Positions 1,281 to 9,260 of a DNA stretch of 64,000 bases are shown here, piece by piece. Every line of letters begins with the position of its first letter. Within the stretch, counting starts at the first letter, position 1. A program made the position numbers and the translations under genes. The stretch comes from Desulfobaculum xiamenense (GTDB lineage Bacteria > Desulfobacterota > Desulfovibrionia > Desulfovibrionales > Desulfovibrionaceae). The stretch covers positions 229,019 to 293,018 of the forward strand of contig NZ_JAATJA010000001.1 of the NCBI RefSeq assembly GCF_011927665.1, written 5' to 3'. Below the pieces are notes generated by a model that was not told where the DNA came from, ran no database searches, and saw only the letters and a list, made by a program, of their open reading frames with translations.

Positions 1281-1877
1281 CTATTTCAGGCCGTTGAGAC
1301 AGGTGAGGCAGAAGGCGCGACCATCGAACATGGTGATGCGCGAATCCATGACGCGTTCGCCGCATCCGTCGCAGACCACGGAGGTGCGAATCTGGGCGGG
1401 ACGGGGCAGCAGTTCGCGCGGGAGGGAAACGGTCATAAAATCTTCCTCGGCGCGGGAGAGGATGTCCCGGACGCGGCGTTCGCGGATGCTCCGGAATTCC
1501 TGGAGTTCCTCCCCCGTGAACGGCCTGCCCGCGTTGGCGAGTTCGAGGAAGCGCGTGTCGTCGGCGTCGCCGATGTAGTACGCGTCCGCGTAGATGCGGA
1601 TGCCGCGACCGTCCGCGCGGTTGTAGAAGGTGTAGGCCTGTTTGCCGTGGTCCAGAAAGATGAGGTTGCCCTTGCCGAAGGTGCACCCGGTGACGACCTG
1701 CACGGCGTCCACCGCGCAGGTGTCGTTTTCGACGATGCAGACGATTTCCTCGTCGTCTGCGGGGGTGTTGCCCAGACGTTCGAGCGCGGCCAGCGCAACC
1801 CGATAGCCGAGGGCCAGTCCGGGGCAGACGTGGCCGTGGAAGGCCGCTGCGTCGTCGAATGTTGGTATGGATCTCAT
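1281..1877 (-). CDS. FmdE-family protein with C-terminal zinc finger
   Basis: A 198-residue cytoplasmic protein of the FmdE family (PF02663). It carries the family signature GHVCPG at residues 15-20. A C-terminal treble-clef-type zinc finger has two CxxC pairs (C169/C172 and C190/C193), as in crystallised FmdE proteins. FmdE was named from the formylmethanofuran dehydrogenase operon, but most bacterial members have no established function; the conserved Cys/His residues suggest metal or cofactor binding. The ATG at 1877 follows an AGGGAG site; a longer upstream reading in the same frame lacks family similarity and overlaps ecfT. It is the last gene of the transporter cluster, 11 bases after ecfT, which points to a role in handling the imported substrate. 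That role is inference. Confidence 0.85.
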   Translation of the reverse strand: MRSIPTFDDAAAFHGHVCPGLALGYRVALAALERLGNTPADDEEIVCIVENDTCAVDAVQVVTGCTFGKGNLIFLDHGKQAYTFYNRADGRGIRIYADAYYIGDADDTRFLELANAGRPFTGEELQEFRSIRERRVRDILSRAEEDFMTVSLPRELLPRPAQIRTSVVCDGCGERVMDSRITMFDGRAFCLTCLNGLK

Positions 1878-1888
1878 GGCGTGTCTCC

Positions 1889-2641
1889 CTAGTGTGTCAG
1901 CAGGTTCATGGGGATGAGCGGAACGAGGAGCAGTATGACGGCCCCGGCGATGCCTGCCGCATCCAGTACGGCAAGGCGTTGGCGGGGGCGATGCTCGCAT
2001 CGGTTCCATGCGAAGTGGCGGATTTCGAGGGTCAGTGACATGTCGCTGGCCTTCTTGAGATGTGAGATGAACAGCGGGACGACGATGGGCAGCAGGTTGG
2101 CCGGATTGACCAGCCGCCGCGCCCGGAAGCCCCGGCAGCGTTGCATGTCGAGGATGCGTTTGGCTTCCTGTAGGCTTAGCGGCACGAAGCGGACGATGGT
2201 CGTCAGGAACAGGACGGCCTTGTCGGGAATGCCAGCCGCGCGCAGGGCTGCCGTCATGTCCCGAAGTGGCGTCGAGAAGATCAGGATCAGGTTGGCCGTG
2301 AGCAGGCAGGCGATGCGCAGCATGTATTCCGCCATGCGTTCGAGCCCGAACAGGAAGCCCGTGAGATGCCCGTCCGGGTGATTCCAGCCCGATAGGCCGA
2401 AGATGAGTGCGGTCCACGGCAGGCTGAACAGCATGACGGCGATCAGCGCGCGGACCACGTTGCGCGGCGGGTGCGCGGCGGGGACCATGGCCACGAGGAC
2501 AGCGAGGACTGCGCACAGCGTGGGCAGGCCATCGAGAAGGAAGACGTTGATCGTGATGGCTGTGAACAGCGCAAGCTTCGTGAAGGGATTCAGCCTGCGC
2601 AGGAACGGGATGGACGCGCCGGACGAATTAGGCATGTGCAT
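1889..2641 (-). CDS. ECF transporter transmembrane protein EcfT (CbiQ-like)
   Basis: A 250-residue integral membrane protein with the CbiQ/EcfT pattern: several hydrophobic helices in the N-terminal 120 residues, then a cytoplasmic coupling region with two Ala-Arg-Gly-like motifs (CRGFRARR at about 155-162 matches the coupling-helix signature). EcfT joins the ATPase to the substrate-binding S component. The ATG at 2641 has GAGG six bases upstream and overlaps the ATPase stop by 14 bases; a second ATG at 2635 is less well placed. The overlap implies translational coupling with ecfA. The substrate cannot be inferred from this subunit. Confidence 0.85.
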   Translation of the reverse strand: MHMPNSSGASIPFLRRLNPFTKLALFTAITINVFLLDGLPTLCAVLAVLVAMVPAAHPPRNVVRALIAVMLFSLPWTALIFGLSGWNHPDGHLTGFLFGLERMAEYMLRIACLLTANLILIFSTPLRDMTAALRAAGIPDKAVLFLTTIVRFVPLSLQEAKRILDMQRCRGFRARRLVNPANLLPIVVPLFISHLKKASDMSLTLEIRHFAWNRCEHRPRQRLAVLDAAGIAGAVILLLVPLIPMNLLTH

Positions 2642-4040
2642 GGGCGGCCTCGCATTCTGCGTGGGGGGTGGTCCGGGAGCGGTCGGATTGCGCGTCGTGT
2701 TCGAGGTGGCGGTCGCGGATGACGAGCGTGCGGTCCGCCACGCTTGCCGCAAAGGCATGATCGTGCGTGGCGATGAGGATGGCCGTGCCCGCGTCGCGCA
2801 GGTCGAGCAGCGTTTCGCGCAGGATGTCCAGATTCCGGCGGTCCAGCGCCACGGTTGGCTCGTCGAGGCACAGGATGTCCGGGCTAGTGACCAGCACCGA
2901 CGCCAGCGAGAGTCTGCGCTTTTCGCCGTAGCTCAAGGTGAAGGGTAGGCGCTCGGCAAGCGTGTCGATGCGCATGAGGGCAAGGGCCTCGCGCACGCGG
3001 CGGTCCGCCTCGGGGGCGGGAACCTTGGCGTTGCGCAGCGCGTAGCCGCATTCCGCGTGCACGCTGTGCGCGAAAATCTGTTCGTCCGGGTTCTGGAAGA
3101 CAAGCCCCACGCGTTCCATGAGCGGTGAGCTGTCGGCGGTGGCCACGCGGCCCGCCTGTGGTTTGGAAAGGCCCTTGAGCAGGCGCAGCAGGGTGGTCTT
3201 GCCCGTTCCGTTGTCTCCGGTGAGGGCGACGATTTCGCCCGCGCGCAGCGTGAGTGAGGCGTTTTCCAGCACGGGGCGCGACGGCTCCCAGCCGAAGCGC
3301 AGGCCATCGGCCTGGAGCAGGACCGGGCCGGGGAGCACCGTGCGGGGGCGCGGGCACGACGGAAGGGGGGTGATGACGTCGGCCGGAACGATGCGCCCGT
3401 CCTGCATGGGGACCACGCGTGAGGCGAAGCGCATGGCGCGGGTCAGATCATGTTCGACGACGATGACGGTCAATCCGTGCGATGCGCAGCGTTCCGCAAG
3501 AGTGGTAAACAGCGCGTCGGCGGAGCCGTTGTCCAGAAAATTGGTGGGTTCGTCGAGAAAGAGCACTTCGGGGCCGATGGCGAGCATGCCCGCGATGGAT
3601 AGCCGCTGCCGCAGGCCGTGCGAGAGTGTGTGGATGCGCTGGTGGCGGTAGGGTGAAAGTCCCATGACCTCAAGCATCCGCTCGGTGATGTGGTGCACCT
3701 CGCGCGGGGATTTGCCCATGTTTTCCGGGCCGAGGGCGATTTCCTCTTCCACGGTGTCGCAGAAGAGCTGCGAATCCGGATTCTGGAGGACCACACCGCA
3801 GAAGCCGGGCAGGTCGCGGTCCAGACAGTCTTGCCCGCTAATGGTCAGCCGTCCCGTGCTCGTGCCGCACAGGGCGCGTTTGTGGATTGCGCACAGATGG
3901 TAGCCCAGCGTGGTCTTTCCCGCGCCGGATGGGCCAACGAGGGCGATGCGCTCGCCGCGTCGGACGTTCAGGCTCACGCCGCGCAGGACGTGGGCGTGCG
4001 TGTCGGCGGTGGTGAAGTGGAGGTCGTGCGCGTCGATCAT
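2628..4040 (-). CDS. ECF transporter ATPase, two fused ABC domains
   Basis: A 470-residue protein with two complete ATP-binding cassettes in tandem, replacing the separate EcfA1 and EcfA2 of many ECF systems. Domain 1 has Walker A GPSGAGKT at 36-43, signature LSHGLRQR and Walker B LFLDEP. Domain 2 has Walker A GDNGTGKT, signature LSYGEKRR and Walker B LCLDEP. It hydrolyses ATP at the cytoplasmic face to drive uptake through EcfT and the S component. The ATG at 4040 overlaps the S-component stop as ATGA, so the two are coupled. A longer open frame upstream is only read-through into that gene. Confidence 0.9.
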   Translation of the reverse strand: MIDAHDLHFTTADTHAHVLRGVSLNVRRGERIALVGPSGAGKTTLGYHLCAIHKRALCGTSTGRLTISGQDCLDRDLPGFCGVVLQNPDSQLFCDTVEEEIALGPENMGKSPREVHHITERMLEVMGLSPYRHQRIHTLSHGLRQRLSIAGMLAIGPEVLFLDEPTNFLDNGSADALFTTLAERCASHGLTVIVVEHDLTRAMRFASRVVPMQDGRIVPADVITPLPSCPRPRTVLPGPVLLQADGLRFGWEPSRPVLENASLTLRAGEIVALTGDNGTGKTTLLRLLKGLSKPQAGRVATADSSPLMERVGLVFQNPDEQIFAHSVHAECGYALRNAKVPAPEADRRVREALALMRIDTLAERLPFTLSYGEKRRLSLASVLVTSPDILCLDEPTVALDRRNLDILRETLLDLRDAGTAILIATHDHAFAASVADRTLVIRDRHLEHDAQSDRSRTTPHAECEAAHAHA

Positions 4041-4618
4041 GCCTGCGCTCCTATGTGGGCCACGAGATGCGTGTGGCCGATGCGTTGCCACACGCGAAGC
4101 GCCAGCCACGCGCCAAGCGCGTTGACGGCCAGCGAGGTCGCCATCTGCGTGCCGAAGAGCACCTTCGTGACGCAGAACCACGGCATGCCGAGCGCGACCT
4201 TGAGCAGCATGAGCACGCAGGTCGAGACGATGCCGCCGAGGATGGCCGCCGCGTAGAGTCGTGCGCGAGGCAGCCCGGCGAGGGCGGAGAGCAGCACATC
4301 GTAGGTCAGCCCTTGCGCGAGGGCGGGGATGAGCTTGAGCGGTCCGGGCAGGCCGTAGGACGCGGGCATGGCCGCCATGGCCAGCGTGGCGAAGACGAGT
4401 TCGTAGACGATGAGCGTGCCGAAGCGGTCGATGATGAGCCGCGTGAGCAGCACGAGCATCACCGGCACCACGAGGTCCACGCGTACGATGGCGAGTAGCC
4501 CCGTGGGTTCCAGCACGTTCTTGAGGATCATGCCGAGGCTGAAGTCCATGGCGATGATGAGGCCGAGGAAGATGACCTGTGTGGTGCCGAAGGAGAATGT
4601 CGCGCGAAGGGTGGTCAT
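4037..4618 (-). CDS. ECF transporter S component, unknown substrate
   Basis: A 193-residue, very hydrophobic protein with about five or six membrane helices. Size and position (between receptor and ATPase) match an ECF substrate-capture (S) component. I cannot place it in a named subfamily such as CbiM, BioY, ThiT or RibU; there is no N-terminal CbiM-type His motif, which argues against classical Co/Ni transport. ECF S components bind substrate directly in the membrane, which fits the absence of a periplasmic binding protein in this cluster. The start at 4618 is the only ATG before the first helix. Confidence 0.75.
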   Translation of the reverse strand: MTTLRATFSFGTTQVIFLGLIIAMDFSLGMILKNVLEPTGLLAIVRVDLVVPVMLVLLTRLIIDRFGTLIVYELVFATLAMAAMPASYGLPGPLKLIPALAQGLTYDVLLSALAGLPRARLYAAAILGGIVSTCVLMLLKVALGMPWFCVTKVLFGTQMATSLAVNALGAWLALRVWQRIGHTHLVAHIGAQA

Positions 4619-4633
4619 GCCGTCTCCGGACGG

Positions 4634-4663
4634 GCCGGGCGCAGGTGGGTGCCTGCGCCCGGC
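4634..4663 (-). other. Intercistronic GC stem-loop after TonB receptor gene 1
   Basis: A perfect 12-bp stem (GCCGGGCGCAGG with its complement) has a 6-base loop and sits in the 52-base gap between receptor stop and S-component start. It has no T-run, so it is more likely an mRNA processing/stability or partial-attenuation element than a full terminator. Confidence 0.6.
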
Positions 4664-4670
4664 GTCGTCG

Positions 4671-6749
4671 TTAGAAGGTCCAACTCAATTCGGCGGTCAC
4701 GATGCGGCCGGGGGCCTTGTCGTCGTCGCTCTCCATGTAGCGCAGGTCCGCCACGTTCTGGATTTCCAGCGAAGCGGCAAGGCCTTCGGCCACGAAGTCC
4801 AGCTCGCGCCAGAACTTGAGGTCGAGCGTCGTGTAGGAGCCGATGATCTCGGAGTTGTCGTCGTTCACGTACTGCTTGCCCTTGTAGTTGACGATGGCAC
4901 TCGTGTTGACCACGTCCCACATGAGCGTCGCGCCCACGTTGAGCATGTCGCGTGGGACGTATTCGAGGCGCATGCCTTCCAGCTCGGGCCGGTCCTCGAA
5001 CTCCTCGATTTCGGTCTCGGTGTACGTGTAGTTGGCGAAGAGGGTCAGCGGGGAGGCGGGCTTCCACGTGGCGTCGATCTCGACGCCTCGGATGTCCACC
5101 TTGCCCACGTTTTCCTTGCGCCACACGGCACGGTTGGCACCCCACAGGAAGCGGGTCGCGCCGGTGTCCACGCTGTAGATGAAGTCGTCGCCCTTGGAGA
5201 TGAAGCCCGATGCGGACAGCGTGACGTCATGGGGCAGCTTGGCATCCGCGCCGATCTCGTAGGTGTCGATGGTCTCGTTTTCGAGGTCGGGGTTGGCGTC
5301 GTAGAAGCGGCCGTAGAAGATGCCGTTGCGACACAGCGAATCGAGGATCGGGGCGCGGAATCCGCGCGACCACGAGATATAGGCGCTCAGGTCGTCGGTG
5401 AGGAAGTAGCGCGCCGCGGCCCGGGGCGAAATGGCGCTCCAGGTGTTCTCGTCGAGATCGCCGCTTAAGGTGTCGTAGGGCGGCTTGTTGGAGTCGTAGT
5501 TGCCGTCGTGGTAGCGGGCGTGGTCGAAGCGCAGGCCGCCGGTGAGGATGAGGTCGCCGGACAGGAGCTTCCATTCGTCCATGACGTACGCGCCGAAGAG
5601 GTCCATGGTGCCGGTGTTGTCGGCGTAGCCGTTGCCGGCGTCGTCATCGTCGGTGGCGTCCACCTTCTGGCGTTTGGCGTCCAGCCCGAGGGAGAGGGTG
5701 TTGTCCTCGAAGATGCGGGTGTTCATGCCGATCTGCCCTCCGCAGTCCGTGCGGGCGGAATCCACGGTGTAGATGCTCGACTCCTTGGCGAAGTCGCGGT
5801 GCCAGAAGTAGTTTTCCTGATTGAAATAGGCGGAGGCGTTCCAGCGCGTGTCGTCCGTGCCGCCGTGATAGGCGGCGGTCAGCGCGTGGGTATCGAACGA
5901 GCGGTGGCTGCCGTGGGTGAGGTGGTACTTGTAGCCCTCACTGCGCATGTCCTCGAAGTAGGAATAGCCGACTTCCACGCCGGTTCGCCCGTCGAAGTCG
6001 TAGCCGCCCTTGATGCTGACGTTTTTTTCGTCCACGGAGCGCCGGTCGGACGCGGCGTAGTCCTTGGATGCCTCGGTGAGGGTGTGGTAGCCCTCACTGG
6101 AGGTCCATGCTCCAGCCACTTCGGCGAATGGCCCTTTGCCGTCGTCCTTGGCGTGGCCTGCCACACGTGCGGCGGTGCGCACGGTGTCATAGCTGCCGTA
6201 GGAGGCGGAAAGCTTGCCGGAGAGGCGCTTGTCCGGGTGCTTGGTGATGATGTTGATGACGCCGCCCATGGCGTTGGTGCCATAGATGGACGAGCCCGGA
6301 CCCTTGAAGATTTCGATGCGCTCGATCTGGTCCCGGTTCAGGCGGTTCCAGTTCACGTCGCCCGTGTCACCCTTGTTGAGCGCCACGCCGTCCACCATGA
6401 TCAGCGTGCGTGCCGGGGCGTTGCCGCCCAGACCGCGCATGGTCACCTTGGAGGAGTAGGACGAGATGCCGTTCCCTCGGCGCACGTTCACTCCGCTGAC
6501 CCAGCGCAGGATGTCGTCCACGGAATTGAACGGGATTTCCTTCAGCCGTTCGGCGTCGATGACCTGTACCCGGCCGGGCACTTCCGAAAGCGGCGTTTCA
6601 TAGCGCGATGCAGTGACGACCACAGGTTCCATTTCGTGCGCGGGGGCCTGAATGCCTTCGTCCGCCGTGGCGTATGCGGGCATGCAGGCGAGGCACGCCA
6701 TCCACAGGCATATCGCCAGAGGCCAAGTGGCCGTTATCCTTCTCTCCAC
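4671..6749 (-). CDS. TonB-dependent outer-membrane receptor (BtuB-like), import cluster 1
   Basis: A 692-residue outer-membrane receptor. A signal peptide (about residues 1-30) is followed by a TonB box (EPVVVTAS) and a plug domain with motifs typical of the BtuB/vitamin-metal receptor group (RVQVIDAERL, GGVINIITK). A long beta-barrel ends in Trp-Thr-Phe, the usual C-terminal aromatic. The GTG at 6749 is chosen because GGGAGG lies eight bases upstream and it opens a good signal peptide; the open frame extends 60 codons further upstream without coding character. It is the first gene of the cluster and would import a scarce ligand, perhaps a metal complex or cofactor, for the ECF module. Confidence 0.9.
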   Translation of the reverse strand: MERRITATWPLAICLWMACLACMPAYATADEGIQAPAHEMEPVVVTASRYETPLSEVPGRVQVIDAERLKEIPFNSVDDILRWVSGVNVRRGNGISSYSSKVTMRGLGGNAPARTLIMVDGVALNKGDTGDVNWNRLNRDQIERIEIFKGPGSSIYGTNAMGGVINIITKHPDKRLSGKLSASYGSYDTVRTAARVAGHAKDDGKGPFAEVAGAWTSSEGYHTLTEASKDYAASDRRSVDEKNVSIKGGYDFDGRTGVEVGYSYFEDMRSEGYKYHLTHGSHRSFDTHALTAAYHGGTDDTRWNASAYFNQENYFWHRDFAKESSIYTVDSARTDCGGQIGMNTRIFEDNTLSLGLDAKRQKVDATDDDDAGNGYADNTGTMDLFGAYVMDEWKLLSGDLILTGGLRFDHARYHDGNYDSNKPPYDTLSGDLDENTWSAISPRAAARYFLTDDLSAYISWSRGFRAPILDSLCRNGIFYGRFYDANPDLENETIDTYEIGADAKLPHDVTLSASGFISKGDDFIYSVDTGATRFLWGANRAVWRKENVGKVDIRGVEIDATWKPASPLTLFANYTYTETEIEEFEDRPELEGMRLEYVPRDMLNVGATLMWDVVNTSAIVNYKGKQYVNDDNSEIIGSYTTLDLKFWRELDFVAEGLAASLEIQNVADLRYMESDDDKAPGRIVTAELSWTF

Positions 6750-6859
6750 CGTGTTGTCCTCCCGTGTGCGCGGTCCGGATTCCTGTTCGGACCGCTGGCT
6801 ACATGTTTGCGAAAAGTCGTACGTGACAGGACTTTTTGTTGAATCGGTAGCTAAAATCG

Positions 6860-6887
6860 AACACGAAATTAAAACTGGTAACACGAA
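6860..6887 (-). promoter_or_regulatory. Direct repeat AACACGAA x2, possible regulator site of import cluster 1
   Basis: Two exact copies of AACACGAA start 20 bases apart (6860 and 6880) in the AT-rich leader or promoter region of the receptor gene. A perfect -35 hexamer TTGACA (6912-6917, minus strand) lies upstream with a poor -10 after 17 bases. Two-turn spacing suits a dimeric regulator, but none is identified. Confidence 0.35.
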
Positions 6888-6978
6888 TCTGCTAATGAAG
6901 ATTCCGCAATGTGTCAACATGACTACCAAATCAAAAAAAGTGCCGGATAGTGGGCATAAACGGAAGAGTGGGGGGGCA

Positions 6979-7534: not shown

Positions 7535-7996
7535 ATGAATCGACGGGAAATGGTGAGGAGCGTGTCCATGCTGCTGGCGGCAAGCCTCCTCCCTGTGGGA
7601 ATTGCTGGTGCCTGCGAGAGCACGCATGATGGTTTGTTGGCTAAAATGGACTCGTATCATGGGCGGATTGATATCAAGGCTGCGGATAAAGAGATTCACG
7701 TATATCTTGATTCAGACAGAATTGATCACGGATATCCGTTCAAGTTGGATATGATGTTTGTGTTGCAATGCTATTGTGCGCCAACACCGTGGTCGGATAT
7801 GACGCTGAATGATGCCGTGCTGTCCGCGAATGGTAGAGAAGTGGTTATAGTGTCTTCTGCTGATCGGATGGTTGTTGTTCTTTGCTTGAGCGATGAGGAC
7901 TGCTTGATTCAGCAGGAATTTTTTCATGAATATACATTTGTCAGGTATACAGGGTACGGGCTTGCACGTAACGTGCGTCCGGCAGTGAAATTTTAA
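7535..7996 (+). CDS. Secreted protein of unknown function
   Basis: A 153-residue protein with an N-terminal signal sequence (basic MNRREMVR start, hydrophobic segment to about residue 25, cleavage near GIAGA). The mature part has paired cysteines (QCYCAP near the middle and DEDC later) and an acidic, aromatic-rich sequence. I do not recognise a family. Codon use is clearly more AT-rich than the neighbours (many AT-ending codons), suggesting later acquisition or relaxed selection. The ATG at 7535 is preferred over an in-frame ATG at 7514 because it begins the signal peptide and has AGGG upstream. Confidence 0.6.
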   Translation: MNRREMVRSVSMLLAASLLPVGIAGACESTHDGLLAKMDSYHGRIDIKAADKEIHVYLDSDRIDHGYPFKLDMMFVLQCYCAPTPWSDMTLNDAVLSANGREVVIVSSADRMVVVLCLSDEDCLIQQEFFHEYTFVRYTGYGLARNVRPAVKF

Positions 7997-8090
7997 GGCT
8001 CAAAAGGTCGAGACACATTGAGCCTTGTGATTGTTCATACTTCTGCGCGTGCGGATGTCCTTGACGTTGTTCCCGAAGTTGGAAGAGCCA

Positions 8091-8124
8091 AAAGAAAAGG
8101 CGGCATCCTTTCGGATGCCGCCTT
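8091..8124 (-). terminator. Strong intrinsic terminator of the selenoprotein gene
   Basis: A 12-bp stem AAGGCGGCATCC has a GAAA-type tetraloop and is followed on the minus strand by TTCTTTT. It lies 20 bases after the stop codon. Confidence 0.9.
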
Positions 8125-8142
8125 GAAGTGCGGTGTGGGCGC

Positions 8143-8487
8143 TTAGCTGCCGCAGCAACTGCCGCTGGATCCGCAGCCTCCGCTGGAGCAGGAACCGCTG
8201 GAGCAGCTACCACCACCAACAGGCAGGTTGGAGTCGACGACGAAACCAGTGTAGGTGAGGTCGACCTTGACGGGTGCAGCGCTCGTGAGCAGCTGCTTGT
8301 CCATGACGAACTTGAGGCCGTCTTCGAAATCGAAGACTGCGTCGGTTTCTTTTGGCTCATCCAGAGCCAATGACAGACGTGGGCCTGCTCAGCCGCCGGG
8401 AGCGAGATAGACGCGCACGGGGGTGATTTCCTTGTCACTGAAGTAGGAAATCAGTTCCTTGCGTGCCTTTTCGGACACTTCAAGCAT
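8143..8487 (-). CDS. HesB/IscA-family selenoprotein with Cys-rich tail (in-frame UGA = Sec33)
   Basis: Read with the UGA at 8391-8389 as selenocysteine, this is a 114-residue A-type iron-sulfur carrier-like protein. The ATG at 8487 has a GGAGG site six bases upstream. The first 32 codons (MLEVSEKARKEL start) and the part after the UGA both match the HesB fold in one frame. Sec replaces the first conserved cysteine of IscA in the context GG-U-AGP. The C-terminus is unusual: a Gly/Ser tail with five cysteines instead of the standard CGC motif. A hairpin 18 bases after the UGA fits a bacterial SECIS. HesB-like selenoproteins are known; a Fe-S assembly or redox role is inferred. A naive gene caller would report only the 75-residue 3' part. 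Confidence 0.88.
8352..8370 (-). promoter_or_regulatory. Bacterial SECIS hairpin for the HesB selenoprotein
   Basis: A perfect 7-bp stem TTGGCTC/GAGCCAA has loop UGGAU. The loop starts 25 bases after the UGA, inside the 16-37 base range, and has a G in its first two positions as bacterial SECIS models require. It lies within the coding sequence. Confidence 0.75.
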
Positions 8488-8726
8488 TGCTACCTCCAAG
8501 AGATGGTGATTAGGGAGAAGTAAGGGCGTGAGTCGGCTTTGTCAACCGCATTGATAGGAATTGGGTATATGGATAGATGAAATCGATACATATGATGAAC
8601 GTGCCGGGAGAACTGTCGGCCGTGTTGCCAAGGCGCAAGTGATTGCTTATTCTTCCCAATCACGGCAGATGGGGCCGAGCGGCCCAAGCGAGCGAACCAA
8701 CCGTGACATGTCTGGAGACGCCAAAA

Positions 8727-9260
8727 ATGAGCAATAGCAAGGTAATTCTGAACGCCGAAGAGATAAGCCGGACCATGGAGCGTCTGGCCATGGAAATCAA
8801 CGAGCGTCACGGGGACTGCAAGGAAGTCGCCATTCTCGGCATTCAGCGCCGTGGCGTGGACCTCGCCGCCCGCCTGCGTGCCGCGCTGGAGAAGCGGCTG
8901 GGTCAGGCGATTCCCTCCGGCCTGCTGGACATCAATCTCTACCGCGACGACTGGACCACCCTCGACGTGCAGCCGCAGATCAACAAGACGGAAATCCTTT
9001 TCGACATCGACGGAAAGGAGATTATCCTCGTGGACGACGTGCTGTTTACCGGCCGCACCATTCGCGCCGCGCTGGAGGCCATCCTCGATTTCGGCCGCCC
9101 CCGGCAGGTGGAGCTGATGGTCCTCGTGGACCGTGGGCATCGCGAACTGCCCATTCAGGCCGATTACGTCGGCAAGACCGTGGAGACCCGCCGTGGCGAG
9201 CACGTGGACGTCTATCTCGACGAACGCGACGGCAGGGAGATGGTCTGTCTGGTGGAGTAG
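8727..9260 (+). CDS. pyrR: PyrR bifunctional pyrimidine regulator / uracil phosphoribosyltransferase
   Basis: A 177-residue PRTase-fold protein. The 13-residue PRPP motif VILVDDVLFTGRT is present (as IILVDDVLFTGRT), and the N-terminal IQRRG segment and the DINLYRDD motif match PyrR rather than Upp. In Firmicutes PyrR binds pyr mRNA to attenuate transcription and also makes UMP; in proteobacteria the RNA role is less certain. No pyr gene lies beside it. The ATG at 8727 follows GGAG; an in-frame upstream ATG near 8643 would add residues outside the family. It is divergent from the selenoprotein gene. Confidence 0.92.
   Translation: MSNSKVILNAEEISRTMERLAMEINERHGDCKEVAILGIQRRGVDLAARLRAALEKRLGQAIPSGLLDINLYRDDWTTLDVQPQINKTEILFDIDGKEIILVDDVLFTGRTIRAALEAILDFGRPRQVELMVLVDRGHRELPIQADYVGKTVETRRGEHVDVYLDERDGREMVCLVE

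Follow-up and report, generated by a model that had tools for sequence, protein, structure and literature searches.

A probable selenocysteine-decoded gene of the known IscA/HesB family in Desulfobaculum xiamenense

A reading frame divided by UGA

On the minus strand of the window (the whole stretch of 64,000 nucleotides that was analysed), positions 8487-8143 make up one A-type Fe-S carrier frame of 114 residues if a lone in-frame UGA is read as a residue, which raises the question of whether this codon ends translation or is decoded as selenocysteine (Sec). Under translation table 11 there is no ORF crossing the UGA at 8391-8389, and an ORF search with this table splits the gene in two. The coordinates given to the gene and to its UGA by the initial annotation were right, as the ATG, the UGA as codon 33 and the TAA were all located there. 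Judging from sequence comparison, the gene is very probably (about 0.96) a Sec-decoded member of the known IscA/HesB family of the NCBIfam profile NF038090 (IscA_HesB_Se). The features of the locus are the following:

8143-8487, minus strand: gene of the probable HesB/IscA-type selenoprotein, 114 amino acids, UGA as codon 33 (translation with TGA as U; NF038090 match)
8487-8485, minus strand: start codon ATG
8391-8389, minus strand: in-frame UGA (Sec33), where A-type carriers have their first conserved Cys
8352-8370, minus strand: putative SECIS hairpin, 7-bp stem, loop UGGAU, whose second base is the G (from fold and conservation)
8146-8217, minus strand: Gly/Ser/Cys-rich tail, residues 91-114, five Cys
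8145-8143, minus strand: stop codon TAA
8493-8497, minus strand: GGAGG seen in the sequence 5 nt 5' of the ATG, a likely ribosome-binding site
8097-8124, minus strand: intrinsic-terminator-like hairpin 3' of the gene, 12 pairs and a T-rich tail
8643-9260, opposite orientation to the selenoprotein gene: pyrR, a mechanical ORF from the ORF scan, probably starting at ATG 8727

The gene stands alone, with pyrR upstream in the opposite orientation and the terminator-like hairpin downstream. The fold of 8145-8085 has a z-score of -4.51, none of 200 shuffles being as good, and two terminator-like sites were found, counting both strands, where 1.0 is expected in shuffles. The promoter scan returned a single sigma-70-like site, on the plus strand, and thus no promoter is claimed for the minus-strand gene. 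An Rfam search of 7900-8800 gave five matches at E up to 10, none of them near the gathering score and none to a SECIS family.

Regarding the family, the translated protein matches NF038090 over profile positions 1-101 with 120.9 bits, and the gene scored 114.4 bits in the genome search, both above the cut-off of 85. Nothing of substance sets it apart from this family, its five tail Cys being at the top of the 3-5 range of UGA copies. It has the UxGP motif of TIGR01911 (HesB_rel_seleno), in the form U-A-G-P, and matches that profile weakly, but the score of 32.4 bits lies under the cut-off of 66.35 and points to a related family rather than to membership. The score against Pfam PF01521 (Fe-S_biosyn), 23.2 bits, is likewise below the gathering cut-off of 26.3, leaving the protein outside that family as well, and the place of the gene was not among the matches of a six-frame PF01521 search of the genome. 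Against the A-type carrier profiles of IscA, SufA and ErpA, the protein scores far below the equivalog cut-offs.

The relatives compared came from 100 fetched loci, which are not random, being 30 best matches and hand-picked places, some cut to include both twins, and which hold 137 distinct family sequences. Six were set aside (a spurious frame, and five paralogues whose motif has no Cys and no Sec), leaving 70 copies with UGA, from 33 genera, and 61 with Cys. The UGA stands at the same motif in all 70, and Cys takes the place of Sec there in the 61 homologues. An in-frame UGA, conserved coding sequence on both of its sides and homologues with Cys, marks of a bacterial selenoprotein gene, were found, in 70 UGA and 61 Cys copies. 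In the alignment used for structure prediction (70 sequences, 40 of the 70 Sec and 30 of the 61 Cys copies, U written as C), column C33 is invariant, in agreement with the earlier proposal that the UGA falls on the first conserved Cys.

The AlphaFold model from these 70 aligned members has a pTM of 0.62, with residues 1-90 at a pLDDT of 76-93 in blocks of ten; within the core, the block containing Sec33 has the lowest value (76), and residues 92-114 are below 50 (blocks at 40-45), so that the tail is effectively unmodelled. The best PDB match of the model by Foldseek is IscA 1x0g (E 1.1e-6, TM by query 0.58), one of nine at E <= 0.001, including IscA, SufA, AQ_1857 and HI1723, with a moderate TM by query of 0.54-0.64. 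When the sequence profile was searched against the PDB, six sequences appeared at E up to 1. TraT (E 0.15) was discarded as noise, and the other five are IscA, AQ_1857 or HI1723, with a best E of 2.5e-10. The predicted structure thus has the IscA-like fold of A-type Fe-S carriers, and the NF038090 match and the IscA/SufA fold matches agree with the initial annotation that the frame on both sides of the UGA encodes one A-type fold.

Selenoproteins of this kind have been described before. The tables of PMC1794560 (2006) include HesB-like among 25 bacterial selenoprotein families and, in Table 3, place a HesB-like selenoprotein in Desulfovibrio vulgaris and D. desulfuricans, hosts that also have a selenoprotein SelD; the window gene is likened to these by description, not by sequence. 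Table 1 of PMC13188914 gives the HesB-like family with the motif UxGP and TIGR01911. In a passage of PMC11097638, the HesB-like selenoprotein of M. maripaludis, known here by description and not compared in sequence, is reported as identified by mutagenesis and Se-75 labelling, its function not being clear, and a disruption mutant as still fixing nitrogen (an unpublished observation there). HesB-like selenoproteins had also been said to be known from marine metagenomes, which finds no backing in the counts of the Sargasso Sea survey (PMC1088965), where HesB-like is undetected, with 0 sequences. Because the HesB-like family was already catalogued with selenoproteins (NF038090; tables of PMC1794560 and PMC13188914), the window gene is a correct re-discovery.

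The cysteine-rich tail and the possible role of the protein

The canonical CGC is absent from the window protein, in which Sec33 is in place. A-type Fe-S carriers use three Cys as ligands, of which the last two form a CGC motif, C-terminal in IscA. Compared with IscA, SufA and ErpA, the protein is alike in fold and in the position of the first ligand Cys, whereas it has Sec for Cys and, in place of the C-terminal CGC, a Gly/Ser tail with C95, C100 and C105. Counted in full, the tail Cys are 95, 100, 105, 111 and 112, which agrees with the five stated in the initial annotation. C105 is invariant and C95 and C100 are present in 90% or more of the 70 aligned sequences. The tail had been regarded as less usual, but all 70 UGA copies carry 3-5 tail Cys (45, 15 and 10 copies, respectively), so it is the norm of the family, and the idea that it is peculiar to this gene was dropped. 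In the 61 Cys copies, the number of tail Cys ranges from 1 to 6, with a mean of 4.4. Paralogues beside twins, L022 1952-2281 and third copies in L025, L028 and L092, keep the tail Cys and have neither Cys nor Sec at the motif.

If the protein adopts the A-type carrier fold, as the predicted structure suggests, the selenolate of Sec33 would hold Fe or a Fe-S cluster together with C95, C100 and C105 of the tail, which would stand in for the CGC. A Fe-S carrier role is on balance favoured. A less likely role, compatible with Sec decoding, is that of a real selenoprotein working mainly in thiol/selenol redox or metal binding. In its favour, the Gly/Ser tail with its many Cys might act as a flexible arm that binds metal, the scanned ORFs of the window include no isc or suf gene, and PMC13188914 regards redox functions as likely for most uncharacterised selenoproteins. 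Against this, the fold and the position of Sec33 are those of IscA-type carriers, and with C95, C100 and C105 the protein has as many ligands as a carrier should.

The hairpin, the selenocysteine machinery and the reading of the UGA

The hairpin downstream of the UGA consists of UUGGCUC (8370-8364), the loop UGGAU (8363-8359) and GAGCCAA (8358-8352). The stem begins 18 nt and the loop 25 nt after the UGA; the initial annotation had rightly described a 7-bp hairpin with the loop UGGAU, its 25 bases being the distance to the loop. The bacterial SECIS limits given in PMC13188914 are a loop of 3-9 nt, an upper stem of 4-16 bp, a G at loop position 1 or 2, a UGA-to-loop distance of 16-37 nt and an energy of -7.5 kcal/mol or lower. 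With a loop of 5 nt, a stem of 7 bp, G at loop position 2 and 25 nt, the window hairpin lies within the limits as given in that source. By itself, the stretch 8391-8340 reaches -17.6 kcal/mol (z -2.51, matched by 4 of 200 shuffles), a moderate result that includes a second helix starting at the UGA itself; in a relative with the identical 19-base stem-loop, that hairpin alone folds at -10.9 kcal/mol. These 19 bases are identical in 18 of the 70 UGA copies, the window copy included.

Once relatives are compared, the hairpin is much better than chance. The inner five pairs (3-7) form in 70/70 UGA copies, compared to 46, 32, 25, 7 and 53 of the 61 Cys copies, and G occurs within the first two loop bases in 70/70 and 42/61, respectively. 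The outer two pairs form in 36 and 52 of the 70 UGA copies and all seven in 31, so that a stem length of 7 bp is not general. The inner pairs are kept in UGA copies because of a near-fixed codon choice: GCT at codon 8 after the UGA (69/70 UGA copies vs. 7/61 Cys copies), CTG at codon 9 (70/70 vs. 37/61), GAG at codon 11 (69/70 vs. 24/61) and a GAT codon in the hairpin (55/70 vs. 8/61). As the hairpin core is so fixed, there is little covariation; two copies (in L055 and L069) each alter both sides of one inner pair with pairing kept. Relative to synonymous recoding, the fold energy has a mean z of -1.27 over the UGA copies, with 40 of the 70 below -1, and of -0.26 over the Cys copies, with 16 of the 61 below -1, and RNAalifold gives a 5-bp hairpin at -8.8 kcal/mol for the UGA copies and no structure for the Cys copies.

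One of the 61 Cys copies (L005, 2151-2465, minus strand) still has the SECIS core GGCTC-TGGAC-GAGCC, a remnant of either a Sec-to-Cys change or gene conversion; in PMC1794560, a HesB-like gene with Cys is described in a figure legend as carrying a putative remnant of a SECIS.

The genes for Sec insertion, whose presence remained to be checked, were found in the same genome: selA (599.3 bits, cut-off 267.9), selB (394.3, cut-off 242.25), selD (336.9, cut-off 125), which carries its own in-frame TGA, and tRNA-Sec (RF01852, 80.5 bits, cut-off 47), called tRNA-SeC with the anticodon TCA (UCA) by ARAGORN. RF01852 also exceeds its cut-off at three more places in this genome (48.0, 47.6 and 47.6 bits) and in 5 of 14 control genomes; since ARAGORN calls two of the three lesser places tRNA-Ser and tRNA-Trp, this cut-off alone proves little.

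Among 119 genomes of the same family, NF038090 has a match in 111, over the cut-off in 108, and selB is present in 100, with selA in 6 of the other 19. A UGA form over the NF038090 cut-off occurs in 91 of the 106 genomes with selA or selB vs. 1 of the 13 with neither, where the position of the UGA at the motif of codon 33 is established for the 70 fetched copies and assumed in the other genomes counted. Fisher's test gives p 2e-8, a guide only, as it ignores kinship. The 15 genomes that have selA or selB but lack a UGA copy above the cut-off include several incomplete ones and one narrowly under the cut-off (G067, 84.5 bits). The single genome with a UGA copy in which neither selA nor selB was found (G022) is 67% complete, in 520 contigs. 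In another genome with neither gene (G106), a TGA-bearing match is far under the cut-off, with 24.5 bits. A further genome (G001) has nine NF038090 matches, one of them over the cut-off, and three of the weak ones have a TGA.

These comparisons bear on two other readings of the codon. Readthrough of the UGA without Sec, by near-cognate suppression or with another residue, would make the hairpin a by-product of the LALDEP codons, and indeed the hairpin overlaps this conserved peptide, which is partly common to many Cys copies. However, in Cys copies the peptide is largely retained but the pairing is not, with 45% of stem cells paired (193 of 427) and 89% in UGA copies (438 of 490), and the presence of the UGA form tracks selA/selB, which makes such readthrough very improbable. 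A pseudogene or a true stop, with translation ending at the UGA and the downstream part decaying, would fit the lack of an ORF across the UGA under table 11 but hardly the conserved downstream part in 70 UGA copies from 33 genera, all with the UGA at the same motif, the codons beneath the hairpin near-fixed in UGA copies only, or the Sec machinery in the genome, and it is equally improbable.

Decoding as Sec remains the preferred reading: a frame conserved across the UGA, a hairpin kept by synonymous-codon constraint and the Sec machinery together indicate, on the basis of sequence, a functional selenoprotein gene. SelB with Sec-tRNA-Sec would bind the hairpin at 8370-8352 and decode the UGA at 8391 as Sec33. 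The selenoprotein proposal of the initial annotation is thus supported, as the genome has selB and tRNA-Sec, and the sequence beyond the UGA, rather than being lost in homologues ending at this codon, is conserved in 69 further UGA and 61 Cys homologues.

Cysteine twins and a second Sec/Cys pair

A Cys twin of the gene lies in this genome at C1:226554-226850, beyond the window, some 10.4 kb downstream of the Sec copy on the same strand. When selenium is short, this twin may stand in as a selenium-independent form. A single-protein scan of the genome contigs for relatives gave 401 pattern matches, none confirmed, and a whole-genome profile search was used instead. Within the fetched loci, a Cys twin accompanies 47 of the 70 UGA copies and is absent for 23, a biased rate, as the loci are short and partly chosen for both. 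In these 47 loci, the UGA copy precedes the Cys copy in 34 and follows it in 13, with gaps of 64-397 nt apart from one of 2409. Among the neighbour clusters, the two largest (87 and 83 loci) are mixed with overlapping frames of the family itself, and the smaller ones occur in 10-17 loci, so that this comparison neither points to a partner gene nor speaks against one.

The isolated location had been considered less usual, which holds in part, as the 47 copies with a nearby twin differ from this arrangement and the 23 others do not. It is doubtful that the isolation is meaningful by itself. In a genome of the same genus (G036), the region by the Sec copy matches the pyrR region of this genome at 77% over 511 bases, with the Cys twin in tandem 173 nt beyond the Sec copy. 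By comparison with this one same-genus genome, a block may have entered between the twins here. The part of the interval inside the window (1284-6929, minus strand) holds an FmdE-type gene, a CbiQ-type permease with a double ABC ATPase, an ORF without a Pfam match and a TonB-dependent receptor, and a further ~2.2 kb lies outside. These genes perhaps serve in metal or cofactor uptake.

A second Sec/Cys pair, related to ErpA (NF033940, ErpA_rel), is located on another contig of the genome:

Contig C4, L082 1816-2109, plus strand: ErpA-related UGA copy
Contig C4, L082 2356-2649, plus strand: ErpA-related Cys copy

The two copies score 135.5 and 138.9 bits against NF033940 (cut-off 65); ahead of them lie the C-terminal part of a glycyl-radical enzyme and the activating enzyme of the latter (TIGR02494, 368.4 bits). 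Of the 119 genomes, 13 have an NF033940 match over the cut-off and 9 a TGA-bearing copy over it, with the UGA seen at the motif in 8 of the 9. The consensus of seven of these eight UGA copies, this genome's included and a more distant eighth omitted, gives a 7-bp hairpin with the loop GGUCU at -8.6 kcal/mol, its stem 11 nt and its loop 18 nt after the UGA. This hairpin appears in the single-sequence fold of six of the seven, and three comparable Cys copies fold differently. The 59-base stretch of this genome's own copy has another fold, no better than shuffles (z -0.45). A SECIS is therefore suggested by sequence for NF033940 and not settled. A literature search for ErpA and selenoprotein returned no such protein, as far as titles and the beginnings of abstracts go. 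This ErpA-related pair, a by-product of the analysis and less studied than the window gene's family, is the more interesting of the two.

For the family, the Cys-rich tail and, often, the Cys twin are common features. With two Sec/Cys pairs of A-type carriers in one genome, it may tentatively be proposed that, if both are carriers, ligation of Fe-S clusters by selenolate would be a recurrent natural device here, with the Cys twins as selenium-independent stand-ins and the flexible tail of the first pair adding the remaining ligands. A comparison of Sec and Cys twins from a single organism could test whether a selenol ligates a Fe-S cluster in nature.
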